This document shows, one piece after another, positions 3,514 to 63,755 of a DNA stretch of 64,000 nt; position 1 is the stretch's first letter, and each line of letters starts with the position of its first letter. The notes beneath the pieces were generated by a model. That model saw only the letters and a list, made by a program, of their open reading frames with translations. It had not been told where the DNA came from and ran no database searches. This stretch comes from Trebouxia sp. TZW2008 (lineage: Eukaryota; Chlorophyta; Trebouxiophyceae; Trebouxiales; Trebouxiaceae), in the NCBI GenBank assembly GCA_002118135.1, contig BDIU01000146.1, positions 432,102 through 496,101 of the forward strand. The letters run 5' to 3'. Position numbers and translations under genes: made by a program.

Positions 3514-6500
3514 ATGTCTGGGGAAGTCGAAACCTTCGCCTTTCAGGCCGAGATCAACCAGCTTTTGTCTTTGATTATCAACACCTTCTACTCCAACAAG
3601 GAAATTTTCCTTCGTGAGCTGATCTCAAATGCATCAGATGCTTTGGACAAGATCCGATTTGAGAGCCTTACAAACAAGGCAGTGCTGGAGAGCAACCCAG
3701 AGCTATACATTCACATCATTCCTGACAAGACAAACAACACCATCACGATCGTGGACTCTGGCATTGGCATGACCAAGGCAGACTTGGTACGCTACGATAC
3801 GTGGCCTGCAACGATTTCACTCTTCATCGCTTGGCATCGCAGACGTTTGACAGGCCACATAAACGAATGCTGATCTCGGTGCCTCGTTTTTTCCGCAGGT
3901 CAACAACTTGGGTACGATCGCAAGATCTGGCACCAAGGCATTCATGGAGGCTTTGTCCGCCGGCGCAGACATTGCCATGATTGGTCAGTTCGGTGTCGGT
4001 TTCTACTCCGCCTACCTTGTAGCCGAGAAGGTCACAGTTATCACAAAGCACAACGATGACGAGCAGTACATTTGGGAGTCACAGGCAGGAGGCTCCTTCA
4101 CCATCGCACGTCACGATGAGGACCCTCTTGGTCGTGGAACCAAAATCATCCTCTACCTGAAGGTCAGCAAACCTGCAGACTAGTCACCTGTGTTGTAATA
4201 TGCAGCCTCGCTCATGATGCTGATCATGCCATCACTTTGTGACATCAGCCTGGGACATACAAACCTCATTGCAGCATGTGGTCAACTATCTGTGTGCAAA
4301 TTACCTGTCACACCCACAAGGGCTTCTGGTATTAGCCTTATTGCAGATTCATGTTATCATTCGCTGACATCAGCCTCGGACATGGAAAGGTCTATGCAGT
4401 ATGTGATGCACTGTTGGATGTGAGTCAAATGCCACACCCACAAAGAACTTTTGGAGTGAGCGCCTTTGTGTTGACATCATGCTTGCTGATTACAGGAGGA
4501 CCAGCTTGAGTACCTCGAGGAGCGCCGTCTGAAGGATCTTGTCAAGAAGCACAGCGAGTTCATCAGCTACCCCATCTCTCTATGGACTGAGAAGACTACT
4601 GAGAAAGAGGTTTCCGATGACGAGGTATGCATTGGCAATCAACAGACTTTTTGTTGCCTCACTTCAAGGCCCCACTTTTTGGCATGTGCCTCAGCATGGT
4701 TTGTCCTGGTCAGCTTGCTGGTCCTACTGAAGTCACGCCTCAGTGCAACTGCCTCACCTTGGCCTGGACCTCTTTGCAGCTTCTGTTGAGCGGCTGTGAG
4801 CATGGCAACAATGCTCATGCAGCACATATTTTTACTCCTGGCAGCTCTAGTCTGCACTTCGCTATGCCTGTTAGGTCACCTCTACCTTACTGTATCTCTC
4901 CTTGTGTCAGAACTACAAAGAATTGTATCCCGTACCCTTTTGGGCAAAGGCCATGTTGATGGTTACGGCATGAACAATGAGTGATCATGATACTGGGTGT
5001 GCAGGAGGAGGCACCCAAGGAAGAAGACGACGAGGAGAAGATTGAGGAGGTGAAGGATGAGGAGGAGACCAAGGAGAAAAAAAAGAAGAAGGTGCTGCTT
5101 CTTTGCCTCTGTGTGTCGCTGTTTTGGGTATTGCTGTTGTGGGTGTTGGCCTGTCTGCAGCCATCATGCCAGCACTCTTGACAGGATCTCCGCAGCTGAG
5201 TTGGAATATGTGCAGCTTTATATGGCAATTCTGGGTTGCTGTCGTCACAGCAGGCATCTTACTTTACTGTGCTTCTACCATGAGCAGTGCAACTGTATCT
5301 GTGCTGCATGCAGTCTGGCACGTGCTGTAAGCTGTCTCTTGCTGTGGCCAATTTCAGCAGAGTCTCTCTTGGAAACTGTGAGCAGCCTTCAAATAATGAT
5401 GCTCCTTGTAGGTAAAGGAGGTCAGCCATGAGTGGGCCCTGGTGAACAAGCAGAAGCCCATCTGGATGAGGAATCCAGAGGAGATCACCAAGGATGAGTA
5501 CGCTGCCTTCTACAAGTCCCTGTCCAACGACTGGGAGGACCACCTGGCAACCAAGCACTTTAGCATTGAGGGACAGCTCGAGTTCAAGAGTGTGCTGTTT
5601 GTACCCAAGTGAGTGTTTTCTGCTTACAGTCAATGACAGCGTGCAGCGTCGATGTTGGATTGAGACACTATGGCTTGCTGGACACAGCTACCACACCTTG
5701 TTTAATGTGTGGCCACTGCAGCCAGCAAGCCTCAATGGTGCTGCTTTGCAAGTCCAAATTGCAACTCAAACTACAGCCGACCATCCACTGCACAATTTGC
5801 TTCAATGGCTTGCTGGAGTCCAACTGTGCATCACTGGACACCAGCAAGCCGTTGAAGCAAAGTTGTTTGCTGTGGATTTATTTGAGTCCCCTGATCAGCA
5901 GCGTTGCTGCTTGTTACAGCTAATGTCAATCAGGTAAATCCATGTCATGCACTTTGTACTGACAGGTTACATTTGCAAAGAGCAAAGGCCTGTCTGGTCG
6001 CCTGCGCTAGTGGCTGCTCTTGTTGCTGAATGCAGTCTGTATGCAGCAGCCAGCTGCATTTTCTTCACTCAGCCAAACAGTGCATGGCATACATTTCAGT
6101 GGTCAAATGAGGCGTGTGGGTGCAATAAGCTCTTTGGTGGATTGCAGACATACTTTGCATTTGATGTTTCTTCGCAATGTGGGGAGGACAGCAAGTGTGC
6201 CTGCATCTGCTGTGGCACAAATGGCAGGCTTGCAACACCTGTGCCTTGTAGCCGACGCAGACACACCTGAATGTCCTCCCCACAGGAGCATCATGGCTGG
6301 TGTTGTCAGCTGACTTCCAATAGTTGGCAGCCAGCTGCAAACTGGCTGTCTGCCTCTGAAGTTTGCAGCAGCACACACAATTGTTTGTTCCTTTTGATGT
6401 TATTGTTAATATGCTGAAGCTGTGTGCTGCCGTCTACGAATGCTTTAGATTGCTCTGCATTAGCAAGACTCTACATTCAGATCCATCTGCAAGACTTGAC

Positions 6501-9500
6501 AGTCAACATATCTATGACAGTAGAGTATCACTGCAGCAATTAGTCACATTCTGATTCTGTGCTGGTGTTTGCAGGCGTGCACCTTTTGACTTGTTTGACA
6601 CCAAGAAGAAGCAGAACAACATCAAGCTGTACGTCAGGAGGGTGTTCATCATGGACAACTGTGATGAGCTCATCCCTGAGTACCTTGGCTTTGTCAAGGG
6701 CATTGTTGACAGTGAGGATTTGCCCCTCAACATCTCCCGTGAGATGCTGCAGCAGAACAAGATCTTGAAGGTACTGTCTGCCGCTCAATGCAGTCATTGT
6801 CTCTTGATGCTTTTTGGGCTCAGCGCAATGGTAGCACAAAGGCAACAAACTCAGACATTGTGGGCAAAGGTTATGTTCACGTGCTACACAGCACCACATC
6901 TCAATCTGGCTGCTGCACCTAGAAAATGCTGCTCATATCATCATCTACGGTGCTGCTGTGTCCTGTCTCACTTCACTGACTGTAGCGCTCACCTCAGAAC
7001 TCACCACATGATTCTGCAAAGCTGAATGCATACTGTTGTATGATTCTGCAAAGCTAAATGCATACTGTTGTATGCTCATGTCTGGTGACCATGTGCAGGT
7101 TATCCGCAAGAACATCGTCAAGAAGTGCTTGGAGATGTTCACAGAGATCGCAGAGAACAAGGATGACTACAACAAGTTCTATGAGAACTTTGGCAAGAAC
7201 TTGAAGCTGGGCATTCACGAGGACTCTCAGAACAGAGCCAAGATGGCTGAGCTGTTGAGGTGGGGACTCGCTTCTACCTGCTGATTTGCAGCTGTTGTCA
7301 TGATTTTCTTGCTACGATTTCAGCTCAGTGATATTGCTTTTGTGAATGATGCTGTTCCACAGCCTTTCTGGCTGGCATTAGCTTCTTATGGCATGTCCAA
7401 GAACGCGCCAGGTTGCAGCTAAGTGATCTCAACCAATTGGTTCAGTGCCTGTGCTGCCATTTGGTCTAGTGCCTGTGTTCTGGGAGAACATTGATGTTTT
7501 GCCGTAATCATCTGGCGTTCAGTTCATGTCAGAATGCGTACCAGCCAAGCAACAGTCATGCTCAACTGCAGCTCAGCTCATGTTGCCTGATACATTGACA
7601 CCTGTCTATCATGACTGCAGGTATCACAGCACCAAGTCTGGTGAGGAGATGACCAGCTTGAAGGACTACGTGACCCGCATGAAGGAAGGCCAGTCCAGCA
7701 TCTACTACATCACTGGTGAAAGCAGGAAGGCTGTGGAGCACTCTCCCTTCATTGAGAAACTCAGGAAGAGAAGTCTTGAGGTCAGTTTGTCATCCCTGGT
7801 CTCTTTCATGTGCCCTGTTCATACCTGCACCTTGTGTTGATTGGCGGCCAGAGTCAACTACAAAGATACTACCCTTGACCCTGTACCTCTTAATCCCAAA
7901 GGTGCAGAGCATTCCAGGGTATCATCAATTTCATGATGTTTTTTTTTGTTTCTCAAGATGACATTGAGAACCTCAGGACAAGCTTCAGGTGGGTGTTTTT
8001 GTCACACCCCCAAGTCATGTCTGCATGCTGCTTGTATCAGCAGCGCTGCCCTAACTTTGAGCAAGCCATACTGTCATCTGGCATGCACAGAAGGTTGATC
8101 ATTGCTAAAGCCTCCTGCACTCAGGCCTATGAGCCCATGAAGTTGGGGCATTGATGAGCATTCTGTGCATGCTATGTGACAATATGGCTGACTTGAGCGC
8201 TGACATCTGTATGTGCTTTGCGGTGTCAGTCTGACTCAGAACAGGTGCTCAGTTGCAAGCCCAGGACTGCTACAGTCTCAAACAGCTGGACTGCAAGTGA
8301 ATACTGTTTCGCATGTCGTGCTGGCTGGCCGTGCAGGCAACAATCAAGTCTGTTCCTTAGGTCTCCTTGTGAGTCAATCGTTGCAGCAGATTGTTGCAGT
8401 CTTCTTACCTTTTGACTGTGAGCTTTTCACGCCTAGATGACTTGAAGTCAGCTCACCCTGCTTATTCGCTTTCAGATGTCTAGTCTGTGTCCTCTGCCCA
8501 TACACACTTGCGTTGCTGCTTGTCAATTATGTTGACAGCAGCTTGAGACAGTATCATTCTGGCTTACACTGCTAGGCACTGCCATCTGTGACTTGCGCTA
8601 GGAAGTCTGCCAAGTCACATACAAGTCCCTTACTCAGGCTTGATTGCATTGACTGATGTGTCGAGTTATTAATCTACATTCCAGGGTGAGACTGATAAGG
8701 AGAGCGAAATTTTAATGTACACTTCACCAACCTAAGCTGTATGCCTGTGTTGATTGATTGGTTCCGAACGCTGTGCAGGTGCTGTACATGGTTGACCCCA
8801 TTGACGAGTACGCCGTCCAGCAGCTGAAGGAGTACGACGGCAAGAAGCTGGTGTGTGTGACCAAGGAGGGCCTGCAGCTGGATGAGACTGAGGATGAGAA
8901 GAAGAACAAGGAGGAGGTGAAGGCTCAGTTTGAGGGCCTGTGCACCTTGATGAAGGACATCCTGTCAGAGAAGGTTGAGAAGGTAGGCTTCTGACCGTGA
9001 CTGTGTCAAATGGCTGCCTGCATATCTTGTGCAGTGGTAATCGGTTTCAAGGGCTGGTCCACCTTGAAGGTTTTGTCAGAGAAGGTTGAGAAGGTAGGCT
9101 TGAGCGCAACACACAGCTGACCTGGTTGAGCATTGAGCACTGGTTAGCATGTATCATCCAGATGGTGAATGCATGATGCTTTGACTGTTTGCACAAGATT
9201 TTCCAGTCCACTGGTTGTCAAGTCAACATATTCAGTATTCAGTACCACAGCTTGGGTGCTGCATGGACAAGTCCTCTGTTGCTGCAGCTCGCTGTATCAG
9301 ATTGCATTCTTCACAGCCACAAATGTGCTGGTCATTCAATCTCCTTGAACATCTCCTCATATGGCCATTTCTGCTGCAGGTCATTGTATCAGACCGCATT
9401 GTAGACAGTCCCTGTGTGCTGGTGACTGGAGAGTATGGGTGGAGTGCAAACATGGAGCGTATCATGAAGGCACAGGCGCTTCGGGATAACAGCATGAGCG

Positions 9501-10491
9501 CTTACATGTCCTCCAAGAAGACTCTGGAGATCAACCCAGACAATGCGATCATGCAGGTCAGGCTTAGGATATTTATGCTGCTTGTTTTGCTTTACCGCCG
9601 GAACACAGGTCTAGTTTGCTCTACGTATGCTGCTTTGCTTGCCTCAGTGCTTGTGGAGGGTTTGTCACGGCATTGGCTTTGCCCCAGCGTTGTGGGACTG
9701 ATTCTAATGCTTGTGTCGGCATCTTGTCACACTGCTCTGTATCATGCAAAAATGCTGATGAAAAAATGTCTGCAACTGCATAGCTGCCCATTAATCTCGT
9801 TGCTGTTCGAAAGTAGCCCTGCAGGGTTCTGCTGTCTGTTGACTGTATGATGCAGTGGTGATTACTGCTGCTGCGTTGTTGCCGGACGTTAGCAAATGTG
9901 GTCAGATGCCTTCCAGTGCTTTCTCTGTGCGTGAGTGACTCCTGCTGATTTCTGCTGCTTTGCCTTCTGCAGGAGCTGCGCAAGCGTGCGGATGCTGACA
10001 AGAGCGACAAGACAGTGAAGGACCTGGTGTTGCTGCTGCATGAGACTGCCCTGCTTACATCTGGCTTCAGCTTGGATGAGCCAAGCACCTTTGGCACAAG
10101 AATCCACAGGTATGTCATTGCTCATATTCCGTATGTTGTGTCCTGCCTTTTGCCATGCGATGTTGCACTTGCCGTCTTGCATGCAGTTGTTCTCTCCTAA
10201 TAGTGATGTTCCAGATAACAGTGCCATCTGGCTAGCATGGGTATGTCATTGATTGCTCATTAATGATGTGTTACGCTACTCAGCAGGATTGCCAAGTGCT
10301 GAACAAGCAAGACTAGTGTCCAGTGAGTTTCAAAAGCAAGTTGTTGACATCCACTGTCTTCTGGCTGCAGGATGATCAAGTTGGGATTGAGCATTGATGA
10401 GGATGACACAGTCGGTGAGGATGCTGATGAGGACCTGCCACCACTAGAAGAGAATGTCGATGAGGGCAGCAGAATGGAGGAGGTCGACTAG
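3514..10491 (+). CDS. HSP90: Cytosolic heat shock protein 90
   Basis: Twelve exons join in phase to 701 residues, the usual length for cytosolic HSP90: 3514-3786, 3899-4162, 4496-4624, 5005-5091, 5412-5608, 6575-6770, 7099-7259, 7621-7780, 8779-8982, 9380-9556, 9973-10109, 10371-10491. The N-terminal GHKL ATPase shows [14 protein letters not shown] (catalytic Glu, Mg-binding Asn), IVDSGIGMT and GQFGVGFYS. Exon 4 encodes the acidic/lysine charged linker. The middle domain has [11 protein letters not shown] with the catalytic Arg. The protein ends in MEEVD, the docking site for TPR co-chaperones, which marks it as cytosolic rather than plastid or ER. It is an ATP-driven client-folding chaperone. 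The promoter has a perfect heat-shock element and a TATA box. Several introns contain damaged copies of neighbouring exon edges. Confidence 0.98.
4225..4470 (+). repeat. Two-copy degenerate tandem repeat in HSP90 intron 2
   Basis: Two blocks of about 130 bp, each beginning TGACATCAGCCT and ending in a CACACCCACAA motif, follow each other. They are intronic and non-coding. Confidence 0.7.
7009..7072 (+). repeat. 32-bp tandem duplication in HSP90 intron 6
   Basis: Units 7009-7040 and 7041-7072 differ at one position. The repeat ends about 26 bp before the exon 7 acceptor. Confidence 0.9.
7955..7999 (+). repeat. Decayed copy of HSP90 exon 8 3' edge
   Basis: Resembles the end of exon 8 (ATTGAGAAACTCAGGA, with the splice donor) about 210 bp downstream of the original, within intron 8. 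It has lost the reading frame. Confidence 0.6.
9035..9102 (+). repeat. Copy of HSP90 exon 9 3' edge including the splice donor
   Basis: The stretch GTCAGAGAAGGTTGAGAAGG followed by TAGGCTT is identical to the exon 9/intron 9 junction (8966-8991) and is repeated about 112 bp later. Similarity extends upstream in degenerate form. It duplicates a functional 5' splice site inside the intron. Confidence 0.85.
10226..10258 (+). repeat. Copy of HSP90 exon 11 donor region
   Basis: GGTATGTCATTG plus TTGCTCAT repeats the exon 11 donor (10110 onward) about 128 bp downstream inside intron 11. Confidence 0.6.
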
Positions 10492-12391: not shown

Positions 12392-12433
12392 CAGATGCGA
12401 GAAAGGCAAAACCCTTGATTGCCATTGGTCGAA

Positions 12434-14216: not shown

Positions 14217-14223
14217 GACTGCT

Positions 14224-14285
14224 GGAAAGGAAAGGAAAGGAAAGGAAAGGAAAGGAAAGGAAAGGAAAGGAAAGGAAAGGAAAGG
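14224..14285. repeat. (GGAAA)n microsatellite
   Basis: About twelve perfect 5-bp units. Confidence 0.97.
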
Positions 14286-16565: not shown

Positions 16566-16769
16566 CGCACACTAATGTGCACGCTGAGGACCCTCATCAA
16601 GTGATCAGACAAAGGCATTGCGCTGAAACACACTTGAATCAGCAACGCTGTCACTTGCTGAAGATGTGTGTTCAGGGTTCAGGCTGAAGTATCACAGTGA
16701 GACATGCTGATGAGCTCATCTGCACTGCGCCGCACTGCGTACAAAGCATTCAGACAAACTGGCACCTAC

Positions 16770-17120: not shown

Positions 17121-17814
17121 CACCAGCGGATGCGACAGAGTTAGTTGCTCAGCTGTTGGGTGCTGCACAGGGAGTGGAGACCCGCCATTTGTATAGTGCA
17201 CAGAGCCTCTTGAGCTTGATCTGGCGTGCTCAACCAAGTCGTCCTGAACAGGAAACAAAGGTAAGCTGAGTTGCTCTGGCATGCCAGGCTTGGTCACAGG
17301 ACCTTGTGGGGCTGCACAGGGCATGGCATTGCAACTCAGAGAGTTCATGCTGATGAAGGCGCAACAGCTGCATACTGATCAGGGAATTGTGCATTGATAT
17401 TGTAGTTGCACAGCAGCATGACCCACTTGTTTGCTGTGCAGTCTGCATAGGGCAGCGCACCTAAAAGCTTGCATGCTAAGCCAGAGCAAGCCAATCTTCC
17501 AAGTCAATTGCATTACAACTCATTTCTGACATATGGCAGCAGGATCCTGTTCTCCAACTGCAAATGCACACTTGTCTTTTAGTCCAGGGAGGAAATGAGA
17601 ATGCAAATGGACGCATTCCTTTTTTCAAACCTGGCATTTGCATAGCCAGGATACTGATCCCTCACCTGGCCTGAATTTGCAGCAATAGGAGGGGATTCTG
17701 CCCTAGACCCACGCCTTGTACCAACAGGAGTGCCAGCATGAGAGCCTGCATTTGATGTTTGGCCAGCAGCATGAGAGGGCGCTGGCTGTGAAACCAGAGC
17801 TTGTGTGATGATAG

Positions 17815-18520: not shown

Positions 18521-19029
18521 AGGCGGTATACCCATACAAATCTGCACAGCAAAACAATTTGCCTTCGGTTGCTGTGGGGCTGCCAGTGAGCTCTGCTTGA
18601 ACCACCTGCAGCATTACGTGGGGCTGGCATGAGGTGAGTGTATGATTCAGCAGCAGCATGAGGGGCCTGTGGTTCTGATGTTGGGGCTTGTGTGATGATG
18701 GGCAGGGCGCCTGTGCCAATCCTGATGCAAGCAATGGGTGAGCTAGTTTGCCTGCTGATTGCAATCGGACTGTCATTGGCTTCTGCTTGATGAGCTTGCA
18801 TCAGGCTTGCACAATCTCATCAAAGCAGCCCAGTATCAATCAAGTCCACGTGTGTCTGCCACAGCACAGCAGACCAAGCTCCAGTCTTTGCAACACACAC
18901 ACGGCTGTTCTTCAACAGCTGCCATGAGCAGTTTTACACACAAGTTTGCCAGACTTGATCTTTGTGAGGTTTCGAGAGTCTAGACAATACAAATTTCTAA
19001 CAAGTCAAGCCCAACACATGAGCAAGCTG

Positions 19030-24123: not shown

Positions 24124-27100
24124 TCACTTGAAGGCACTAGGGACTGGAATTTCGCCCTCGTAGAAAGCATCATCTTGTGTCTTCTGTGGGCCTGATATCT
24201 GCCCAGCTGCACCATTGCTGCTGAGATACTTTGCCACATCGTTTGCCATGGTGTACCCATGCTCTATACACTTGCCCAAGGCCACACCTGCACAGCGTGT
24301 GCACATGTTGCAGCCTTCAAGCATCATATGAGATGCAATGCAGCTATGCACAGCATTATGGCTTGGGATTGAACAGGGTGCTTTGCCAATGCACTCAGTA
24401 TGCAGGTGGTGCTCCCCACATGTGGTTCAGAAATCAGGTGCATGCAAGAAAGTCAACAGTGCTGCACATCTGGCTATCTGCTGCCTCAGGCACACCTGGA
24501 ACAGCTTGTGGCATGAATGGTCTGAAAACTGCTTACCAGATACATAGTTGCCTCCAAGGTAGAAGCCATTCCAGCCTTGCTGCGCTAGATCTTGCTTCAG
24601 TGCCTGCAGGGCCAAAGCTCCATACATTGAGCATCCAGACCCGCGTGTGCATTATACTCAAGTCTTCATGGAGGGCCACAAAACAATCTATGCACTAAGC
24701 ATTGAAACTTCACAATTCATGTCCATCAGACATCAAGTCTTCACAAAACATTGCGCTGCCATTCTCATCATGATGCTGAGCTAGAAGGCAGCAGCTGGTC
24801 TGCCGTTCTTTTCATTCCTTCATCAATTCATTCATTCTGAACATGTGCTAGACAGGCTCAGCAGATCCAGCTAGGTAAGCACAGTCAACTGTCACCAGCC
24901 AGTTTGATCCTGTGCTATTTCAAACCTGGTCTGCCTTGCTGAGCTGTTGTGCACTATGTCACAGACACAGACAGGACACAGGAAAGGCAGGACACAAGAA
25001 AAGCACTACAGTGAGTTCTCATTGTAATGGCGCTTGATGTAGGACATTCTTGATGTAAGGACAATGGAATTAGGAACCAATCACTGTGTTCTGACTGCAA
25101 TGGTACCTCTCAATAAGGACAATTCAGTGTAAGGACTATTTTGGTACCCAAAGCAGTGGTTCCAAAGAAAAGTCACTATCAACTTCACCTGTACATCTTC
25201 AAGGTGATGGATGTTGAATTGTGGAATAGCTCTTTGCCATACTGTGACATCGATAGTTTTGGGTGCTGGTGCATCTGGCTTCACCAGCATTACTCTCAGA
25301 TCTCTATCTACCTGCACACAGGCAGACAAATGATGCACACATTGCCTTGTGACCCAACAAGTGCATGGACCTTTACAGTCTGTAAACGGAGAGGCCCCTT
25401 CACAGGGCACAAGCTGTCCATCGCTCAGAGCGGCAACGCCGCGCTGGGAGGCAAGCTGTTGGTAGGGGACGGCTCTGTCACTCTGCCCATAAACGATTTT
25501 GCCAGTGACAACAACAACGACACAGGTTTTCACCAGATCACAAGACGCTTTGTCGAGTACTTGACTGACACACCATGCTGCAAATGCTTGCAATGTCAAA
25601 GGCAACCTATCAGTGCAACCTGGAGTTTCTTCCTGTTTGCAGACCCTAAAAGCTTGTTGGTAAACAATGAAAAGCACAAGGAGATGAACAGGCAGAGGAG
25701 ATAAGACAGAAAATGAAAAGGAAAGTTGATGATTGCATGACTGAGGCATCAGTGCATAAGCAGTGAGCTGATGCAGAGTGTTGCGCTTGATGTTAAGGTA
25801 GCAAGCATCAGGGTTTGAATCAGCAAAGACCTCACAGGCAAAGCTGTAACCTGTCACAATGCAAAACAGCCGCCTACACAACGACATTAAGACCCTACCT
25901 GTGACACAAGCTCTGCTGAAGATTGGTCTACAATGCCTCACTTTGGGGCGCCATCTTTCATGTCACGCACAATGATGTGGAACAGAGCTTAAACAGCAGA
26001 GTGCAAAAGCTACCTGTGACACAAGCTCTGCTGAGGATTGGTCTACGATGCCTCTGTTTGTGGCACCACCAATGAAGTTGAGCACTAGATGTTGTCCCTG
26101 AGGCGCTCTGCCTTCAAAGACAGAACTGCTGTAAATGGTGCCTAGAGTGGTAATGCCTTGACTCCTTGGATGCAACTGACCAAACCCTGCAACACAGCAG
26201 TATCTTTGCCTGATTTTCTGCATGATGACCAGGGATCAGAAACGTGTCTATTTATCAAATGTGAGCACAGTTCACAACTCCTGAGAGCAAAGCCAAAACT
26301 GCTGTAGCAGGTGCCTCAGTTTGTAATACCTTGGCTGCTTGGATGCAACTGACCAAACCCTGTAACACAGCATCATGGTTGACGACTTTGTTGCCCTTGT
26401 GTTGCTCGACTGGCAAAGACAGAACCAGTACAGATGGTGCCTCGAGTGGTAATGCCTTGACTCCTTGGATGCAGCTGACCAAAGCCTGTAACACAGCACT
26501 GCAGTTGACAGCTTCTAGGAGCAGGGTCGGCAATCTGCACAAAAGCATTACAACTCTGTGGCGCCAACAATGTAATTGAGCCAAAGGCATCGCCCTGTTC
26601 ATGCTCTGCCAGCAAAGACAGAAGTGCTGTAGATGGTGCCAAAAGAGACAATGCCTTGGCTCCTCAGATGCAACAGACCGACGCCTGCAACCACACCATC
26701 ACTGTTGACATCTTCCTGATGAGATCAAAACCTGCAAATACTTGACACCTGCTATCAAGCATGATAGATGAGAGTTCCTCAAAGGTGATTGACCAAATCC
26801 TGCAAACGCAGCACCACGGTTGATGACTTTATCAAAGCAAAGGATCAAAACCTGTGTCTGAAGTATCACAGTCATGTGGCGCCACAGATGAAGTTGAGCA
26901 CCCATGTATTGTCCTTGTGACGCTCTGCCAGCAAAGACAGAACTGCCGTTTAAATGGTGCCTAGTGTTGTAATGCCTTGGCTCCTTGAATGCAACTGGAT
27001 GCAACTGACAAAACCCTAGAACACAGCATCACAACTTAGCTCAATATGCTGTTCTTGTGGTGCTTGACGTGCAAAACAGACTGGAGTGGGTTGTGCCTAG

Positions 27101-40800: not shown

Positions 40801-43800
40801 GCATGTCCCAGCATATGCACCATGGTGCAGACTGCCAAGAATGATATAGACAACAATGATCTAGACAACAAACAGTCTAGACAGCAGACAGGTTCACATG
40901 ACCTTGCAGAAACGAGATGGACAAGCATGTTGACTGTGTCCAACTAGAGCAGACAGCAACCAAGCCAGCATCAGTCATCATGACTCACCTGCAGCTGCTG
41001 CCCCTGCTGCTTGAGGCTGTCCTCAGTGTCTTGCAACTGCTGCGTCAACAGCTGCACAGCAGCTTCCCTGGCAGCAGCAGCCTCCTGAAGAAGAGTGACT
41101 TGCAGGCGCTCAGCATCATTCAGAGCGTTGGCCTGCTGTAGCTCAGCTCGTGTGGCTTGCAGCGTGCTCTGCAACTGACTGTGTTTCTGATGCCAGCTGT
41201 CTTGAGACTCTTGCCATTCACTGAGCTTAGCAGCTTGTTCCTGAGTCTCAGCCTGCAAAGCACCACGCAAGTGATGATAGCAAAATGCGCCGCATTTGCC
41301 TGTTGCAGCTCAGCCTGTGTGGCTTGCATTGTGCTTTGCAGCCGCTTGTGCTTCTGGTCCCAGCTGACCTGTGAGCTTTCCCATTCACTATGCCTAACAG
41401 CTGGCTTGTGTGTCTTAGCCTGCAAATTGTGAGGTGAGTCATGAGAGCATCACTCAAGATGTTAGCCTGCTGCAGCTCAGCCTGTGTGGCTTGCAATGTG
41501 CTCTATTTTTGCCTGTGTTTCTGATGCCGGCTGTCTTGAATAACTTCCCATTCACTAAGCTTGGCAGCTTGCTCCTGAGTCTCAGCCTGCAAAGCATGAA
41601 GCGAGTGATGATAGCTTCAGCTTTTGCATTGGCCTGTTGCAGCTCAGCTTGTGTGGCTTGCAGCGTGCTCTGCAATTGACTGTGTTTCTGTTGCCGGCTG
41701 TCTTTGAGACTCTTCCCGTTCACCAAGTTTAGCAGCTTGTTCTTGAGTCTCAGCCTGCAAAGCATGAAGCGAATGATGATAGCCTCCGCTTTTGCATTGA
41801 CCTGTTGCAGCTCAGCCTGTGTGGCTTGCAGCATGCTCTGCAATTGACTGTGTTTCTGATGCCGACTGTCGTGAGACTCTTCCCATTCACTAAGCTTAGC
41901 AGCTGGCTCCTGAGTCGCAGCCTGCAAAGCATTAGGCGAGTGATGACAGCATCATTCAAGGCATTGACCTGTTGCAGCTGAGCCTGTGTGGCTTGCAGCG
42001 TGCTCTGCAATTGACTGTGTTTCTGATGCCGGCTGTCGTGAGACTCTTCCCATTCACTAAGCCTGACAGCTTGCTCCTGTGTCTTAGCCTGCAAAGCATC
42101 AAGGTGCATAGGCATCAACAATCAAGTCAGCGTGGCAAACTAGCAAGGTCAGTGGCCATCAAGAGCCAGCATGGTGAAGACAGGCTTGTCTTGACAGTCA
42201 GAGTGAAGCTTCTGTCAAGTGGGCAGTGAGTGATTTCATGCTGCTGCAGTGCCTGTCTGTTAGGCTGAGCTAAGTCGTTTTGCAGCTATTGCACTGCAGC
42301 AGCACGGCAAAAAGGGCAGCGCTTGGTTGGGAATTGCCGGCAAAGTGACTCACCTGTGATGTGGCGAGCTGAGCTTGGGTGTCTTGCAGCTGCTGAGTCA
42401 GCTGCTCCAGCCGGCTTTGTTGAGTTGGTGAAGAGCTTTGCTGATGCTGCACCAGCTGCAGCTGAGCTGCTGTGTCCTCACGAGCCTACAGCAATAGCAA
42501 GCATGGAGCATAGCAAACTTTAATGCTGAGGGTTGTACTGTTGCTGGCGGCTGTACTGGGCTGCCCCTCTGTGTGCACCTGAGCCAACACTTCCTTGCGA
42601 GCCTGCAACAACAAGCAGGCCAAAATTGATCAAGCCTCACCAGTAATGTGCCCTGCTGTTGCTTCAACTGCAGCTGAGCTGCTGTGTTATCACGAGTTCT
42701 GCAACAACAAGCAAGCATGAGACACGTACCCCTCTAAGCATGGAGGATCAAGTGTTGCGCAAGGTAGTGCTACTGCTCGTGAAGAATAGTCGCATTACAA
42801 GCAGCATCAGCATGCTGTGCCACTCAAGACTGTGCAGTGGTGCAGAGTTTGCTGTCAGTGAGATGACTCATTATTATTGCTGCATTGGCAGCAACTTAGA
42901 GACTCAAACCCATATACGTCTTCCATTGTGAGCAGGCATACTTTGCATCATTCTATGGCTGTTGTGACGTTGACAATTGCGCATTTTAAGAAGAGGCAAG
43001 AAGGTTGCTCATGCTGCTGTTGCTTGTTCATGCGCCATCTGCTGCGTGAGCATGCTTTTGACAGCGGGATGTAACATTCATTCTGACCTGCATTTCAGCT
43101 TGCAGGTTCTGGATGGTGACCTCAGCAGTGCGCAGCCGCCGCTGAGCTTCACCATACCGCTCGTCTGCATTGTGGTGCCGCTGCAATTGATTGGCGTTGA
43201 GTTGCAGCTGGCGCTCTTGGCGGTCACACACCGCCCGCTGTGCTTCTAAAGCTGCCTCCAACTGCCATACCTGTTACAGCAACTTGTTACTACTACAAAG
43301 AGCTTTTCGTATGCACAAAAGCTTACATGGAAGACACCATAAACTATTGGTGACATACTATATGGATGCAGCCCAATTACTACGACTTCAGTATAGACCT
43401 GTGCGCCATGCTTGGATGACAGCGGACGGAATTGGAGGCCATCCTTCCAGAACTTGTACAAGAGAGGCTCATGGTCAATGCAAATAATTGGTGTTGACTC
43501 ACGGCAACAACCTCCAAAAGAGACAATCATGCAAACCAGCCTTGACAAGTATAGCCATCGCACAATTTGAGCGTCTCTTTTGCAATGCCTGTAGTCTTGG
43601 AAGTAGTGGGAGTTACATCAGCATCTAGACTCATGATGCAGCTGCAGCAGATTGCACAGATCCTTTGTACACATTTATCTTGCTTGAAAATATGGGATGC
43701 TTCTGGACAGAACTCTGCCAGGCAATGCCAGACCACAACATATGCACAGCAGATCCTTTGCACACATGCTGATCAGCTGAACATACAGCATTACCTTGGA

Positions 43801-52741: not shown

Positions 52742-55700
52742 ATGCACGCTGAAAGACGTACAACCAAATCAGGCGGACCGAACAAGCGTCTGGTGCAGCC
52801 GCGTCACCTTATCGTCCTGGCTTGTTTCTTGGCAACATTGTCAGCCTATGTTGAGCGTGTGGGATTCAGTATTGCATATACAGCGATGGCAAAGAGTGCT
52901 GAGGTCGATGAAGCTACAAAGGGCACTGTCCTGTCAGCATTCTATTGGGGCTATGGGTTATCACAGGTTAGCGTGCATATGCATGCCTACAGCTAAGCAC
53001 CCGCGTATGGTGTCCCTGCTTTGTTCATAGCGCTCAACAAATCTTTGCTTGTCTCCTTAGCTACAAAACTCCATGCCGATGCAACACAGAAATCTCATAA
53101 TGCTTTAGCAGCTTCCTTTCCGTTGCATCTCCCCAATAGCAACAAAGGGACAGCAATGGCAAGCTGCTGTGTCGAGTCATGTTAATCATGCTGTTGCATC
53201 ATTGCATATTGCTCAAGCCGTTATTTCACAACAGAAACTTGTTGATGCAGGTTCCAGGAGGATGGGCAGCACAGCGATGGGGAGGCCGGCGAATGCTCAT
53301 GGTGTCTTTTGGGCTCTGGTCAACTGCCTCAATTCTTACTCCAGGGTCTGCTTCCAGCAACTCAGCTATCATTTCAGCAAGGGTGGCAGTGGGAGTGGCT
53401 CAGGGCTTTTTGATACCCTCTGTCCATACTGTCTTGTCGCAGGTGCGTGCTGTAAGCTTGCTTGGCAATATCATTGTGTGACTATGCTGGGAACACAGTG
53501 CTTCTGTCATGTACTGAAACCAACAAGTTGGCAAATTCACTGCATGAGTTGTCTATTTAGTCCCTGCACAGATGCACCGAAGTAATTCCACAGCCCACCA
53601 CAAGCTGTATGCAGCTTGCCGTCCCGTACATCCCATCACACTACCTCGAGTTCAAGACATAAACAAGCATGGGGGAGGGGGTTGCTGAAGTCACTGTATC
53701 AATCTCATATCATAAGCACAATTTATGTGATGGGCTTTTGCAATGGATCCCACTGCATCAGAGAACCAAAGCAGTGTCTCTCAGCACATCTGTCTTGTGA
53801 CTACATTTGTGACTTCTCCACTGTACTGATCTGACGGCACTCACATGCGGTGGGCTGTTGAGGTAGATTCCGCCGCATGAAAGGGCCAAGGCAGTGTCTC
53901 TCAGCACTTCTGGCATGTACCTAGGCTCATTCTGCACAGATCAGCAGCAAGGGTAGGCCACATGTACAATGCTTGTCAAGTCTCCACTGCATCCAGTCCA
54001 GCTGTCCAACAAACATGTGGTGGGTTTCTGCAGTGAATTTTGCCGCACAAGAGGGCCAAAGCAGTGTCTCTCAGCACTTCCGGCATGTACCTAGGCTCAG
54101 CCGCCGGGGTATTCATTCTGCAAAGCATAATAGCAAGGATAGGCCACATGTACAATGCTTGTCAAGTCTCTACTGCACTCAGTCCAGCTGTCCAATAAAC
54201 ATGTGGTGAATTTCTGCAGTGGATACCACCGCATGAGAGGGCCAAAGCAGTCTCTCTCAGCACTTCTGGCATGTACCTAGGCTCAGCCGCCGGCATGCTG
54301 GTTCTGCCAAGCATAGCAGCAAGGGCAGGACCTGGAACCCTGTTGAAGGTTGTGGGAGGCCTAGGGTTTGCTTGGCTGGCTTTCTGGCTCTTGGTCGGCA
54401 AAGAGGTCCCTCACAGGTAACACTTGACGACAGCAGTGTGTCTGTTTGTGTGAACAAGCACAGCAGTAAGGGCAGGACCTGCAGCCCTGCTGAAGGTTGT
54501 GGGGGGCGCAGGGTTTGCCTGGCTAGCTTTCTGGCTCCTTGTTGGCAAGAAAGTCCCTCACAGGTGACTGTTTGAGATGTCTGATACAGTGCAGACTCTA
54601 AGCAAGAATGTCTTTTATCACAAGTCTTGCTAGTGATAATTGGTGAAAGGATTCCTCAATATGTGACATTGCATGGCAAAATATCTGTGACTCTGCACAA
54701 GGCTCTCTGCTACTTGACACACCAGGTTCATATAGATGATGCTGCAAGGCAGAGTCACTATTTTGCCACAATTCCTGCCGTATGAATTGTTAGGCAGATG
54801 CATGTCTCTCATGATTGAGCATGGTTGTGTCCTTTCATCTTGAACAGAACTCGCAGCAAACAAGCACATGCCCTGTGCTGAAGTGACAGCTGTCATCATG
54901 TCATGCAGGCTGACCACCATACCACTGGCAGCTGGCGAGAAGCAGAAGGGCCGCATCCCAGCTACCCCTTGGCTGCGCATGATGACTCACCCTGCAGTGT
55001 GGGCCATCATCATCAACAACTTTGCCTTTCACTACGCCTTCTACGTCGTGATGAACTGGCTACCAACCTATACTGACAAGGTACATACTACTCTCAAAAG
55101 CAACACACATGGCTTGCTTGAGTTGCTGTCATGTTTTGCTTGTGATGCATCATAAGCATGTCATGCTTCACATGGCTCTGACGCCCAAGCTTGAGCAGGA
55201 CGCTTGCGCTCATTTCTGCATATGCGTGCTATTTCCTCTGGAGTGGAGGATCTTGATGGCTGCAATCAGTGAGATTCAACCATGCCTCATACTGGTGTAT
55301 GCTGTTGCATTGAGTGCTGTTGTTGCAGCCCTGTGCTGCATTTGGTTTATGTATGCTATTGCATTGGATGCTATCTCTGCAGCCCTCTACCACCACCATC
55401 ACTATACCTTCTTGAGTGGAAGTCTCTGAACAAGTGACATGCCTAGCTGCAAAGTTTGAGATTGCTACTGCACATGTTGTACTTGTATTATTAATTTGTA
55501 CATTGTGCATGATTGTTGAAGGCATCGGGTGCCCTTTTCTAGGTGTTGCATGCTGATCTGGCTGACTTGGGACTGGCCAAAACGCTGCCTTACCTGGCCA
55601 TGTTTGCAAGCTCCAATTTGGGCGGCTGGGCAGGTGACGACTTGATACACAGCCGTAGGTTGCCAACAGCCAGAGCTCGCAAGATTGTAAACACATCTGG

Positions 55701-57051
55701 TGAGCTCTGCTTTGCCCTCTCAATTGTGTACTTGATCTTGAGAGCTGCATGTATGGCTATAGAAACCTTGCTCGTCTAAGCTTGAGGGTGCCGGGTGCAA
55801 GATTGTTGATTGCATGATGAAATCAGCCTGGATCATCTCACAGGCGCCGAGCAAGCTCGCTGATCACAGAACTAAGCAAGCATGCATTGCAGCATCATGA
55901 CTAGCTCTTGCCACTTTCACCACAATGATCATCACTTCAATCACATGCGTACACTTTGCTAATACACTCACTTTGCAGCACTTGAAATCGCTGTTCTGCA
56001 GGCTTTATTGGAGCTGCCATCTCACTGATGTTTATGCCACAAGCAAGCAGTGTGGCCAGTGGCGTGACTGCCACCACCAGTGCCTTGGCTTTGGCAGGCT
56101 TTGCCAGAGGAGGCTTCTCAGTGAACCATATGGACATTGCACCCAGATATGCCGGCATACTGATGGGCATATCAAACACAGCTGGAACCTTGGCAGGTAC
56201 GCATTGTGACTGCGTCATGCATGGGTATTGCACCCAAATTTGCTGGCATACTGATCGGCATCTCAAACTCAGCTGGAAACTTGGCAGGTGTGAATTGTGA
56301 CTGCGTCATACACTTCGATACAAGCTTGCAAAAAGGTGGACGCAGGGCCTTGGCTTGCTGTGCACCCTATACTGGGTTTGTAGCTAGATAGGCAAATGTG
56401 ATTGCAAAAGTGATTTGTGTCATTTTGTCATTGGGAGCCAACACAAAACCTTTTTTGTTGTCTCTCGAAAACTGCAAGCTTGGCTTCGAGGGGTGATTCA
56501 TGTTACAAAAGTCAGAATCGTCCTCCATTTCGGCAGCGAAAGCACAAACTCCTTGATTCCGTCTTCGCGCTATATATAGCACTGAAATGCCCTTCACAAC
56601 ATCCGAACATAGCTCAGATGGCTAGAGCGGCCGACTGTAGATGTTAAAACAGAGATCGGCAGGTCCCTGGTTCGACTCCGGGTGTTCGGACATCCTACTT
56701 TTGTTTTTTGATAGAACAGAAGGGGTTGCCCTTGGTGTTCGCAGCTCCGTAATTTTTGCAGCAATGCGACATAGTTTTTGGAACAATGCCAGCACATTGC
56801 CGCTACATTTTAGCAATGTCCAGTAGCAATTGATTCTTGGGTGATTATATTCCAGCAACACATTTTGCAATGCAGGTGTCATTGGAGTAGCAGTAACAGG
56901 AGTGATGCTCAACACAGCACCCAGTGATGTCAAGTCCAGTGGTTGGTTTCAGGCGTTTGCGACATGTGCAGTCCAATGCATAGTTGGCAGCATCATCTTT
57001 GTACTGTTTGCTCAGGGCAACAGGTTGTTTGGCAATGATCCAGACAGCTGA
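52742..57051 (+). CDS. SLC17/PHT4-type anion transporter (major facilitator superfamily)
   Basis: Seven exons join in phase to 437 residues: 52742-52966, 53251-53442, 54220-54416, 54909-55080, 55543-55699, 56002-56196 and 56876-57051. Family motifs occur in order: [96 protein letters not shown] and [20 protein letters not shown] with [12 protein letters not shown]. These are the hallmarks of phosphate/organic-anion carriers of the PHT4 (ANTR) and vesicular SLC17 group. The short N-terminus has no obvious plastid leader, so the membrane is uncertain. Exon 3 is the last and only intact member of a four-copy exon array. Exon 6 has a broken partial copy, and intron 6 carries tRNA-Tyr. Confidence 0.93.
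53738..54165 (+). pseudogene. Three dead copies of transporter exon 3
   Basis: Copies begin at 53744 (TGG, but acceptor AG changed to AA and a stop at 53798-53800), 53864 (first codon TAG instead of TGG, followed by a deletion) and 54034 (acceptor intact, first codon TGA instead of TGG). All keep the stretch [13 protein letters not shown] or a variant. The intact exon begins TGG at 54220. Offsets are 120, 170 and 186 bp. Confidence 0.95.
54457..54563 (+). repeat. Open copy of the 3' half of transporter exon 3
   Basis: Repeats the exon 3 end 147 bp downstream, encoding [20 protein letters not shown] then [13 protein letters not shown] with a GT donor, still open and with mainly conservative changes. 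An acceptor-like CAG precedes it, but the resulting length (97 or 100 bp) would shift the frame if simply included. Confidence 0.9.
56205..56300 (+). repeat. Copy of transporter exon 6 3' edge with donor
   Basis: The last part of exon 6 (from ATG 56130) is repeated with a 91-bp offset, encoding [20 protein letters not shown], followed by LAG and a GT donor, plus the intron start ATTGTGACTGCGTCAT. No acceptor precedes it. Confidence 0.93.
56603..56690 (+). tRNA. trnY: tRNA-Tyr (GTA) with intron
   Basis: The acceptor stem CCGAACA/TGTTCGG gives the eukaryotic tyrosine identity pair C1-G72 with discriminator A at 56690. The D arm is GCTC/GAGC, the anticodon stem GCCGA/TCGGC, the loop CTGTAGA with anticodon GTA (56637-56639), and the T arm CCTGG-TTCGACT-CCGGG. 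A 14-nt intron (56641-56654) sits one base 3' of the anticodon, the standard place. Mature length is 74 nt before CCA. The A and B boxes are present. TTTTGTTTTTT at 56699-56709 is a Pol III terminator. The gene lies in the sense orientation inside the last transporter intron. Confidence 0.97.
56699..56709 (+). terminator. Pol III T-run terminator of tRNA-Tyr
   Basis: TTTTGTTTTTT begins 9 bp after the discriminator base. Confidence 0.8.
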
Positions 57052-60700: not shown

Positions 60701-63700
60701 ACCCAAACAAGGCTGAAGCATGAGTCTATAACCTCATGGACATATAGTTGTTGCCACTGTGTGGCACATGCAATCAGCCTTGTTGGCTGGCTAAAGCATG
60801 TAAAACGATTCTCTCTCTGAGACCAAGATGTGACAGTATGACAAGGGCAATGGTAGTGCAGAGGCACACTAGAAAGATTACAGGTTCCAAAAGTGTCCTG
60901 GCAGAAGACAACAGATGGCCAGAATGACTCATGGCATTGGTGCATTTGCTGGTGACAGGCAAACGCATGACACCACAACAAGACCAAAGCATGGGATCAA
61001 AACAAGATTGGTTGATAGTACAGTTGCAGCAATGGGGCTTACTAGTTGAGGGTTGATCTTCCTGAAAAGGCAACCATTCTGGCATTTGGGTCAGATGGCC
61101 AGAAGTGACCAGGGCAGCCAGGAATGCTCTCAAAAGCCAGTTCCATGGGCTTCTTGGACTTCTTGCCACCAGTCACCCTGTCAGACCACCACTGAGACAC
61201 CGGCTGCACCAAACAGAAGAAACTGTGAGTTTGCTTGCGCACCATTGACATCTTGTCAGCCTGAACTGTTTCAAAGAGCTTGTTGGACTTTTTGGCCCCA
61301 GCTATCCTGTCAGACCACCACTGAGACACCGGCTGCATCAACGAGAAGAAAGTGTGGGTTTGTTTGCACATCAACTGCAGATTGCCAGCCTTAGCGCATT
61401 TTCAGAGGCGTCTTGGACTTCTTGGCTCCAGCTGTCCTGTCAGACATCACTGAGACACCGGCTGCAGCAAAGACAAGAAGACTGAGTTTGCTTGCACACC
61501 ACTTGCAGCTTGTTCATCCAAATCAATCAACTGCTGCCCTAGGCAGATATGCAGACAGAGTCAAGAGCAATCTGCACAGCTGCTACAAGGAAACATTGGC
61601 TGCATCAAACAGAAATCTCAGATTGCTTGCACACCATTTGCAGATGCTAGCTGAATGTAAACAGACAAGCATGGCTGCTGGCTATGCTGATGTTGTCAGA
61701 GCCAACATGTCCCACAACACTGCTGAAGCTATGGGTTGTACTGGCCAAGCCTCAATATAAAATGATGTGCAGATGTGGTGTATGCCAACTGTTGCCTCAC
61801 AATGCAGGCAGCTGACGGACGCAAATATGATTGTACAGCTTGGAACAAGTAATGAGGTTTGTACCTTGTGGGGTCTTGAGAGGAAGCCAAACAATCTTGA
61901 GGTTGCAGCGGGCACGGTCGAGGCAGAGGGGGTGAGGGGGGTGGCAGCAGACCCTCCCTGGGTGGTCTTGGCTGCACCAAGGAACTGGCCCTGCAACAAG
62001 CAACACATATGAGGTCAGCTTGATAGGCTTGTGCATCAGTAGATCAGGGTGAGGATTTTTTGAGAAAGTAAAGTGGTGAATGCAGCGGCCGGTACGGTTG
62101 ATGCAGAGGGGTCACAGAGGGGTGCCAGCAGACCCTGCATGGGTGATATTGAATGCACCACTGGTCCCTCCCTGCAACATGCAAAACATGTGAAGTCAAC
62201 TCAACAGGAATGTGCATCTGTGGATCAGTGTGGAGATGAACAGGAAGCTACAATGGAGGATGTCGGGGGCAGTGCAGTTCATGCAGGGTGGGTAAGAGCG
62301 TTGCCAGCAGACCCTCCCTTGGTGGTCTTGGCTGCACCAAGGAACTGACCCTGCAACAAGCAACACATATGAGGTCAGTTTGACAGGCTTGTGCATCAGT
62401 GGATTAGGGTGAGGATTTGTCAGGAAGCTACAAGTGATGAATGCAGCGGCCGGTGGGTTGATGCAGAGAGTCACAGGGGGGTGCCAGCAGCCCGTGCATT
62501 GGGGTTAGTCATGGGTGATGCTGAGTGCACCGCTGGTCCCTTCCTGCAAGATGCAAAACATGTGAAGTCAATTCAACAGGAATGTGCATCAGTGCGGGGA
62601 TTTGACAGGAAGCTGAACCAAGTGGTGAGTGCGACGGCTGGTTGATGCAGATCCTCCCTGGGTGGTGTCGAACGTACCAAACACCTGTCCACGTAACATG
62701 CAATAGGCAATGCTAATGAGGTCAGCCCAATAGAAGCTTGCAAAGTTGGGCTTATCATGTCTCCAAGGCATCAGAATCAACTGTTCATAAACTCCGCACA
62801 AAAGGCATAGGCTTTTGTTCAGTTCTTTCCTGGCGCATAGTCAGCAGCTGAGCAGAGAAGCTCTGGAGGCTGTCTCTGATTGTTTCAGATCATGAGGAGG
62901 TTAGACACATCATTTGGCATGCCTCCACATCAGGTCTGCAGACATAAGCTTCCGTTCTAATTCTTACCTGGCGCACGGTCAGCAGCTGGGCACAAAAGCT
63001 GTGAAGGCTGTCCCTCTCATGCTCCACAGCCCTGTTCAGGCGCGCCTGCTCAGCCTGAGCTGCATGCCTTGTGGTCATCTCCCGCTTGGCCAACAAAAGC
63101 TTCTCCACTTTCTTTGTCTCCTGGGCCAACTGCTTTCCCGCCAGCTCATTTTCCTGCAAGCCGTCCAAACCAGGTAATTTGTTGGCACATTGTTTGTCAG
63201 GAATGTGTGCATACGACAGCAATCAATAGCAGCATGGTTCATGAATTCATATGCTCAATGTGCAGTGCAAAGCTCAATTTGGCCTGGCAAGACAGAACTT
63301 TGATCACACACTTCTAGCACCCATGCTAGCATGTGTACGTGACTGATACTATTTCCTATTGTCATTGATGTTACTACATGCAGAAGTGGATTCAGGCCAT
63401 GTTGTGAAGGGCCAGATAGGTTGCTTTGCTGTGCCGCTGACTGCAACATAAACCTTTATGGTCATGAGAGGCCACTGACAACGAAGGTGTCAGCAAATTC
63501 ACCTGCAACGGAATGTGACTGAGTATTTCATGGTCATGAGGATATGCTGACAATGGAATCAAAGGCAAAGCCACCAATTACTTATTGATTGACTCATTGA
63601 TAGAGGGATTGATTGATTCAGTCATTGATGCATTGATCAGAGCTCACCTGCATGGCGACTAAGGCAGTCTTGTCTGCCAGTCTCCTGGCTTCTGACAACT

Positions 63701-63755
63701 CCATTGTCACCCTGGCAATCCCTTCCTCTAGTGACCTGTTAAAGTCCACCACTAC
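57719..63755 (-). CDS. Coiled-coil protein with a degenerate protein kinase domain (pseudokinase), 5' partial
   Basis: Nine exons in the window join in phase to 475 residues: 63755-63648, 63153-62968, 61990-61865, 61203-61043, 60180-59959, 59304-59196, 58823-58691, 58383-58190 and 57907-57719 (stop TGA). Residues 1-98 are coiled coil (SLEEGIARVTMELSEARRLA; LAQETKKVEKLLLAKREM). A Ser/Thr/Ala-rich linker follows. Then comes a kinase fold: RTAVTLKVTSFN (beta-3 Lys kept), SKEIARLKLL (helix-C Glu), SLHGEYGIAIGHLTPDSVMV in place of the catalytic loop, TFMDLGSG in place of DFG, KAADLYAVGVMGLLW (F-helix Asp) and FFCRMLNPSAARSMSAAEAV (C-lobe end). The HRD Asp is His, and the catalytic-loop Lys and Asn are Thr and Ser, so phosphotransfer is unlikely. 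Family not recognised. Confidence 0.82.
59370..59485 (-). repeat. Broken copy of pseudokinase exon 6
   Basis: The plus strand repeats the exon (59196-59304) with changes (CACCAGCTTTGTCCCCTTGT against CATCAGCTTCGTGCCCTTCT; GCCATGTGCTTTGTCAA against GTCATGTGCTCCGTTAA), about 175 bp upstream in the intron, no longer open. Confidence 0.8.
60186..60330 (-). repeat. Two-copy repeat at a pseudokinase exon acceptor
   Basis: Blocks 60186-60229 and 60280-60325 share ATGTT(A/G)ACTGC, TCCAGTGCA and TAGTG. They lie immediately upstream of the exon starting at 60180. Confidence 0.7.
60541..60595 (-). repeat. Decayed copy of pseudokinase exon 4 3' part
   Basis: Minus strand WLTDVNAKIVICCGMAA against the exon's WPSDPNARMVAFSGRS, about 500 bp downstream in the intron. 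Confidence 0.6.
61217..61500 (-). repeat. Two further copies of pseudokinase exon 4 5' edge
   Basis: Blocks near 61255-61345 and 61405-61475 repeat the exon start (PVSQWWSDRIAGAKKSNK and a frameshifted relative), each with GCATCA/GCAGCA in place of the intact acceptor context. The intact exon is 61043-61203. Confidence 0.85.
61890..62640 (-). repeat. About 360-bp higher-order tandem duplication of pseudokinase exon 3
   Basis: GCAGCGGCCGGT recurs at 62082 and 62443 (361 bp). The exon-like block CCCTCCCT(G/T)GGTGGTCTTGG recurs near 61947 and 62307. Each 360-bp unit holds two related subunits of about 180 bp, derived from the exon GQFLGAAKTTQGGSAATPLT at 61865-61990. Only that first copy is open with both splice sites. 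Confidence 0.85.
62815..62900 (-). repeat. Copy of the coiled-coil exon 3' edge
   Basis: TTCTTTCCTGGCGCATAGTCAGCAGCTGAGC with a downstream AAGCT(C/G)TG-AGGCTGTC repeats 62962-63015 (TTCTTACCTGGCGCACGGTCAGCAGCTGGGC in part). The donor is lost (TTTCC for TTACC). Confidence 0.8.

Follow-up and report, generated by a model that had tools for sequence, protein, structure and literature searches.

Where does intron length come from in the green alga Trebouxia sp. TZW2008? The question was raised by a stretch of 64,000 nucleotides (the window; assembly GCA_002118135.1, contig BDIU01000146.1, positions 432,102 to 496,101 of the forward strand), in which introns of unrelated genes, among them those for HSP90, protoporphyrinogen oxidase (PPOX) and an anion transporter, carry decayed copies of the edges of their neighbouring exons. 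The initial annotation of the window proposed that a genome-wide habit of tandem duplication across exon-intron boundaries lengthens introns. Part of this proposal stands: duplication is widespread and correlates with intron length. An aim at boundaries is not demonstrated, since the side on which the copies lie is a matter of geometry, and the excess of exon contact in seven genes outside the window was not significant (p 0.07 or 0.31, depending on the simulation). The best explanation is probably tandem duplication that is genome-wide and blind to boundaries, followed by neutral decay, with the copies of exon edges remaining visible for longer.

Local direct duplications across the genome

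The DNA analysed amounted to 225,699 bases and consisted of the window and 17 other stretches (161,699 bases), which are not a purely random sample: stretches L013-L015 were picked for the HSP90 genes in them, and L019 is from the same contig as the window. The assembly that contains the window has 68.5 Mb in 527 contigs, and the window runs to the end of its contig (496,101). Its G+C content is near 50%, and the published range that we found for Trebouxia is 49.6-51.1%.

Alignment of the window with itself (E<=1e-5) gave 63 pairs, 60 direct and 3 inverted, and all 60 direct pairs were at most 1 kb apart. At the same threshold, 129 direct and 0 inverted pairs were found outside the window. The initial annotation had called for self-alignment against shuffled sequence, and this comparison, with one dinucleotide shuffle per stretch as the control, revealed an excess of local direct pairs. 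Among pairs at most 1.5 kb apart (E<=1e-3), 255 were direct and 4 inverted in the 225,699 bases, compared with 0 and 0 in shuffled DNA; when the threshold was relaxed to E<=0.1, the counts were 302 and 12, compared with 2 and 2. The pairs thus show both marks of tandem duplication, the same orientation and adjacency or near-adjacency. Local tandem duplication is widespread in this genome, beyond the window.

The footprints of the 108 clusters into which direct pairs at E<=0.01 were merged take up 18% of the sequence. Most spacings fall within 60-220 bp (94 of the 108 clusters have a primary spacing of 40-219 bp). The histogram of spacings, looked at with a possible nucleosome-sized period in mind, peaks at 80-99 and 140-179 bp. 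Many clusters were also present in stretches without gene models. Cluster density was very uneven, with a footprint of at most 2% in three of the 17 stretches and of 58% in one. Among stretches of 10 kb, L017, L023, and L024 contained 0, 1, and 2 clusters, and L010, L015, and L021 contained 8, 13, and 10.

Copies of exon edges in the introns of ten genes

Ten genes with 81 introns and 162 splice junctions were modelled from homologous proteins with our own spliced aligner. Three of them are in the window, namely HSP90 (12 exons), PPOX (9 exons), and a PHT4-type anion transporter (7 exons), and they were modelled by spliced alignment to full-length Trebouxia proteins. The other seven were not chosen for repeats and comprise two HSP90 paralogues (HSP90_C47 and HSP90_C269), CCT1, CCT4, CCT5, CCT6, and CCT7. 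They were located by family search, and their models are less exact since they were aligned to more distant proteins. The model of HSP90_C47 is uncertain at donor 7, acceptor 8, and the GC donors, and that of HSP90_C269 is uncertain in its first exons; all of these stay within the 162 junctions.

A copy was found in the neighbouring intron at 29 of the 162 junctions, which divide into 15 of the 81 donors and 14 of the 81 acceptors. The three window genes account for 12 of 50 junctions and the seven other genes for 17 of 112. Junction copies occur in nine of the ten genes; elsewhere in the genome they occur in six of seven (the two HSP90 paralogues, CCT1, CCT4, CCT5, and CCT6), and CCT7 had none among its modelled junctions. 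Where a unit crosses a junction, the functional exon is intact, and the intron contains an incomplete exon edge together with its splice site. The proteins of six relatives that were aligned to the window genes have one copy of each exon.

The geometry agrees with what the initial annotation had described. The copies keep the orientation of their parents (46 of 46 junction alignments are direct, and none of the seven inverted alignments in the ten genes touches an exon), and they lie within about 1 kb of them (82-955 bp for the mapped copies, 31 of the 46 at 230 bp or less). Copies of 5' edges lie upstream of the exon and copies of 3' edges downstream, again in 46 of 46 junction alignments. 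This side rule is not separate evidence, because tandem duplication across a boundary permits no other side. If an exon end and the start of its intron were duplicated, the truncated copy would always lie downstream, and if an intron end and the following exon start were duplicated, it would always lie upstream.

The ten genes contain 39 clusters. The repeats had been placed at exon edges, and 28 clusters indeed touch an exon, but they are not confined there, as the other 11 touch none. Intron-only clusters occur in five of the ten genes; among the 11 are a member of a dispersed repeat family, a simple repeat, and a cluster that weakly matches a second gene. No direct pair in the ten genes had more than 10 exonic nt in both copies.

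This pattern probably arose from duplications that fell blindly along the DNA, perhaps by fill-in synthesis and end joining at staggered breaks or by replication slippage. Selection would eliminate units inside exons. Those that lie in introns or span an exon edge would be tolerated because the original splice site remains; the intron would lengthen, and the units would decay. Copies of exon edges would dominate what is visible mainly because one partner is conserved, so that they can be recognised for longer.

Duplication footprints make up 11,496 of the 42,097 intron bases in the ten genes. The median length of introns with a cluster is 640 nt (n=32) and that of introns without one is 320 nt (n=49); after subtraction of the footprints, the first group falls to 290 nt. 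This agrees with duplication going with longer introns, as a correlation, since long introns also offer more target.

Exon-edge copies in the window genes

The HSP90 gene was modelled by spliced alignment to two Trebouxia HSP90 proteins over its full length (701 aa), and it is 93-94% identical to five Trebouxia proteins and 95% identical to one further protein. Protein P0001, which is filed under Vigna unguiculata (854 aa), was the top HSP90 match by bits at 79% identity, above matches of 93-95%. The junction-crossing copies that had been reported for this gene were found at 2 of 22 junctions, and HSP90 is a weak case.

3514..10488, plus strand: HSP90 gene, coding sequence in 12 exons
8933..8990, plus strand: parent, 3' edge of HSP90 exon 9 (exon end 8982)
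9050..9101, plus strand: downstream copy of the exon 9 3' edge, GT kept (81% over 58 columns)
9280..9332, plus strand: weak upstream copy of the HSP90 exon 10 5' edge, AG kept (75%, 35 bits)

Copies were more frequent in PPOX (7 of 16 junctions), which was aligned to Trebouxia proteins P0121 and P0122. One of the four copies downstream of its exon 5 (27175-27219) stops short of the junction.

24127..31944, minus strand: PPOX gene, 9 exons
31144..31220, minus strand: upstream copy of the exon 2 5' edge (77%, distance 184 bp)
30502..30882, minus strand: tandem array with a period of 138 bp and two copies, running from the 3' edge of exon 2 (end at 30838) into intron 2
29796..30346, minus strand: tandem array at the 5' edge of exon 3, which starts at 29892; the copies lie at 143, 286, and 436 bp
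29104..29184, minus strand: upstream copy of the exon 4 5' edge (83% over 81 nt)
27175..27738, minus strand: four downstream copies of the exon 5 3' part (27629-27738, 27479-27538, 27285-27363, and 27175-27219; 82-85%)
26288..27154, minus strand: five upstream copies of the exon 6 5' edge (26288-26372, 26414-26498, 26557-26691, 26875-27028, and 27038-27154; 71-88%)
25895..25953, minus strand: downstream copy of the exon 6 3' edge (90% over 59 nt)

The transporter gene was aligned to Trebouxia proteins P0241 and P0242, and 3 of its 12 junctions have copies.

52742..57048, plus strand: PHT4/anion-transporter-like MFS gene, 7 exons
53725..54200, plus strand: 5' edge of exon 3 (start at 54220) copied three times upstream, at distances of 186, 356, and 476 bp
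54455..54568, plus strand: downstream copy of the exon 3 3' edge, GT kept (85% over 114 nt, distance 147 bp)
56221..56312, plus strand: head-to-tail copy of the exon 6 3' edge (parent 56130-56221, exon end 56196; 86% over 92 nt, distance 91 bp)

Two further regions contain tandem arrays.

41125..42103, minus strand: acceptor-edge array in the coiled-coil gene, with a 167-bp unit present six times; an acceptor-like tttgcag and the same start of the exon recur in every unit (by eye)
61141..62703, minus strand: two more tandem arrays with periods of 129 and 181 bp and coding-like units

By eye, the last unit of the coiled-coil array continues into an open exon and five of the six units lie upstream of it, in accordance with the exon-edge copies reported for this gene. 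The intronless VAP and LRR genes had been described as free of copies. Both are single open frames, VAP with an MSP domain, and 47.6-53.7 kb of the window contains 0 clusters. An EF-hand domain was detected in the EF-hand gene. No Pfam match was found in two pieces taken for a pseudokinase, or in the single piece tested for SFT2.

The window has other repeats as well. At 17764-18791 there is a 193-bp tandem array with about 90% identity and more distant relatives beside it. Perfect pentanucleotide runs of about 12 copies each are present at 14224-14285 (GGAAA) and, at the contig end, at 63931-63990 (AGGGA). An open frame at 1100-1466 contains a glutamine-rich, coding-like repeat of 24/48 bp.

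Local or dispersed origin of the copies

Copies could also reach introns through mobile elements, elements of the introner type, or templated insertion of exon pieces at dispersed sites. Some pairs are indeed short with a spacer between them, and a few footprints match elsewhere. However, most footprints are specific to their locus: 33 of the 39 cluster footprints in the ten genes have no match outside their own locus in 255,399 bases. Of the other six, one reflects exon homology to an HSP90 paralogue, one is a simple repeat, one is a dispersed family in a CCT1 intron, one is a piece in a PPOX spacer, and two share a weak match with each other. A whole-genome search, in which very common words were skipped, was done for two copy-rich introns (those with the upstream copies of PPOX exon 6 and of transporter exon 3), and it returned only their own loci. 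All 60 direct pairs of the window lie within 1 kb, and the copies keep their orientation and side. A mobile or templated origin is thus very improbable. A dispersed element as the source of the exon-edge copies was unsupported, because the outside matches of the footprints are not the exon-edge copies.

An assembly artefact with collapsed or expanded repeats is harder still to credit. The copies are mostly 70-90% identical, and differences in such numbers are not a product of assembly error; moreover, the pattern recurs on many contigs.

The dispersed family in the CCT1 intron (L030, gene coordinates 911-1027) is about 115 nt long and 74-81% identical. It has seven matches, in the window, L012, L014, L017, L024, and L029. 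To this family belongs an inverted pair of the window whose arms (25007-25177 and 34921-35095, 72% over 175 columns) are 10 kb apart; a second, distant inverted pair (3113-3206 and 60734-60818, 76% over 94 columns) spans most of the window. The CCT1 introns also contain a 180-nt inverted pair (L030, gene coordinates 424-601 and 882-1061, 84%), and its second arm overlaps the dispersed family. A weak match between an HSP90_C47 intron (L014) and a CCT6 intron (L028), 70% over 99 nt, is possibly another dispersed piece.

Decay, splice sites, and coding potential of the copies

Compared with their parents, the copies mismatch at 14.4, 10.6, and 26.1% of codon positions 1, 2, and 3 (45 copies; six overlapping rows, of which at least one was a distinct copy, were omitted). 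The same 45 copies have 39 gaps and seven stops in 892 codons. Positions 1 and 2 mostly record the drift of the copy, and position 3 reflects drift in both partners; when a neutral copy is set against a constrained exon, the expected ratio is close to 2. In their exonic portions the copies thus show the codon-position pattern of unconstrained sequence paired with a constrained exon.

The initial annotation had stated that most copies carry stops, frameshifts, or dead splice sites. For the splice sites this was not the case, as GT or AG is kept in 38 of the 46 mapped copies. By hand count, a stop or a non-triplet gap was found in 22 of 45 copies, and the number rises to 25 of 45 when dead sites are added. 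The copied sites were scored with a splice matrix trained on the 25 introns of the three window genes, which are themselves among the 81 true introns compared. The tenth percentile of true sites was reached or exceeded by 17 of 21 donors and by 16 of 25 acceptors, compared with 6% of background GT and 9% of background AG. The mismatch per base was 9.5% at copied GT and 8.0% at copied AG, compared with 10.6-14.4% at codon positions 1 and 2, which is no clear difference at this sample size and gives no indication of selection for or against the copied sites.

The copies had also been suggested as a supply of alternative exons. Alternative exons under selection were ruled out by the mismatch pattern at the codon positions, and coding constraint appears to be absent. 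As judged from the reading frames, an open in-frame extension of the exon would be possible in 2 of the 46 mapped copies, and to this extent the suggestion may hold.

Exon contact, spacers, and alternatives to blind duplication

If duplications were simply placed blindly on the ten genes, 36% of clusters would touch an exon, compared with the 28 of 39 observed (p 5e-6); this null requires 20 exonic nt and the observed count accepts any exonic nt. Blind duplication was also simulated on the structures of the ten genes, with one partner constrained and with detection as for the real pairs. Simulated exon contact was 47% or 56%, depending on the strength of exon constraint, and it is above the placement value because a pair with one conserved partner stays visible for longer. 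In the simulations, ages are uniform and the indel rate is that of the copies; their events are single, whereas observed clusters merge several.

Several observations weigh against blind duplication with neutral decay. Exon contact is one of them. The 28 of 39 clusters in the ten genes exceed both simulated values (p 0.0015 vs 47% and 0.034 vs 56%), and so do the 11 of 12 in the three window genes (p 0.002 and 0.010). Two clusters are not local duplications (the simple repeat in HSP90_C47 and the dispersed repeat in CCT1), and without them the ten genes have 28 of 37 (p 0.0004 and 0.012) and the seven other genes 17 of 25 (p 0.03 and 0.16). When the third cluster, with a weak match, is removed too, the counts are 28 of 36 and, for the seven genes, 17 of 24 (p 0.016 and 0.11). 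The full count of the seven genes, 17 of 27, is not significant (p 0.07 and 0.31).

The spacers are another. Copies are head to tail or nearly so (spacer of 0-10 nt) in 9 of the 29 junction events, and every one of these has an intron part with 68-91% identity. In the other 20 a longer spacer separates the copies, and 16 of these 20 spacers have no clear homology to the rest of the intron (the best match was equalled by at least four of 60 shuffles). This is a misfit, because simple tandem duplication should leave some homology. Gapped copies were also commoner than in the simulations, where 115 of 271 or 94 of 230 exon-edge pairs (41-42%) were gapped (Fisher p about 0.01; the simulated spacer is taken from the best-scoring pair and the observed one from the nearest pair). 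Judged by the exon part, some gapped pairs are young, for example HSP90_C47 donor 10 (91% exon, 50% intron) and the 3' edge of PPOX exon 6 (89% and 55%). Lastly, a perfect 29-nt direct pair in CCT6 (L028, gene coordinates 2184-2212 and 2274-2302) lies 90 bp apart, so that it is far shorter than its spacing, and it looks more like a templated insertion than a tandem duplication.

The excess of exon contact would be explained by duplication that is targeted to boundaries, in which a process at exon edges (for example, transcription or splicing intermediates that provoke breaks) preferentially duplicates exon-intron junctions. The excess over blind placement, its persistence after visibility is taken into account, and its growth when non-local clusters are dropped all speak for such targeting. 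However, the excess in the seven genes varies with the null and the exclusions (p 0.016 to 0.31), intron-only clusters occur in five of the ten genes, and many clusters are in stretches without gene models, where they may or may not touch exons. Intron decay faster than simulated would also erase the excess. We do not take the excess as proof of targeting, because the window genes were chosen for their copies and the rest depends on the null. The exclusion of non-local clusters slightly raises the odds of boundary targeting and slightly lowers those of blind duplication. On this evidence we consider targeting unlikely.

For the gapped copies, loss of the faster-decaying intron half accounts for part of the pairs, not all. 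Later insertion accounts for some gaps, since the spacer between PPOX exon 4 and its copy contains a piece of about 54 nt that recurs in other stretches. For the remaining gaps, faster intron turnover, later insertions, gene conversion, or some templated insertions may be needed. Gene conversion could have kept old tandem copies young, if the exon part was repeatedly overwritten by the parent and the flanking, non-homologous intron part was spared; it is compatible with blind duplication. Such conversion would explain why similarity falls off immediately beyond the splice site in most gapped events (20 of the 29), where exon parts reach 91% and intron parts are near background, and it would fit the surplus of gapped copies over the simulation. 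On the other hand, one-sided decay alone yields 41-42% gapped pairs, and the remainder could come from a more strongly constrained parent or from introns that turn over faster, so that gene conversion seems distinctly improbable.

A broader alternative joins the two, with exon edges as preferred duplication sites or with exon-edge copies kept similar by ongoing gene conversion. Each intron would then lengthen from its two ends towards the middle, through arrays of exon edges whose decoy splice sites look intact, in a lineage-specific and continuous process. We regard this as rather unlikely, though not negligible, and favour blind tandem duplication with neutral decay.

Relation to known systems and implications

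Introner elements are a known source of algal intron sequence in the form of repeated DNA; they are dispersed and carry both splice sites, whereas the copies described here occur locally, with a single splice site each. Tandem duplication has itself been described as a source of introns. In the Rogers model, the ATP2A1 case of Hellsten et al., and the potato RdRp gene (PMC4974935), a short tandem duplication is involved, as here. In potato the duplication crosses an intron-exon boundary, like the units at 29 of 162 junctions here, and another duplication of 83 bp lies inside an intron (PMC4974935). Those cases are one or few events that made a new intron, whereas in the present genome there are many per gene, inside existing introns. 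Internal gene duplication is common and can include introns (Gao and Lynch 2009, as cited in PMC4974935); segments of that type contain entire introns, and here truncated exon edges are left in introns. According to PMC8355091, short insertions in human DNA are most commonly small tandem duplications, which are produced by fill-in synthesis where breaks are staggered. They are local and direct, as here, but described as shorter than 100 bp, compared with a spacing of mostly 60-220 bp in this genome.

The word 'tandem' is absent from the main text of two Trebouxia genome papers (PMC12712428, PMC11523091). Among titles and abstract openings, in a literature largely without subscription papers, no description of such a density of duplication in any alga was found. 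The kind of event is already known, and it appears to be the density that is new.

Intron lengthening is usually credited to mobile elements. In conserved genes of this lichen alga, about a quarter of intron bases are local duplications of graded similarity, and thus the birth, decay, and loss of copies become measurable. The copies are also a natural set of decoy splice sites, with which splice-site choice becomes testable by RNA sequencing.

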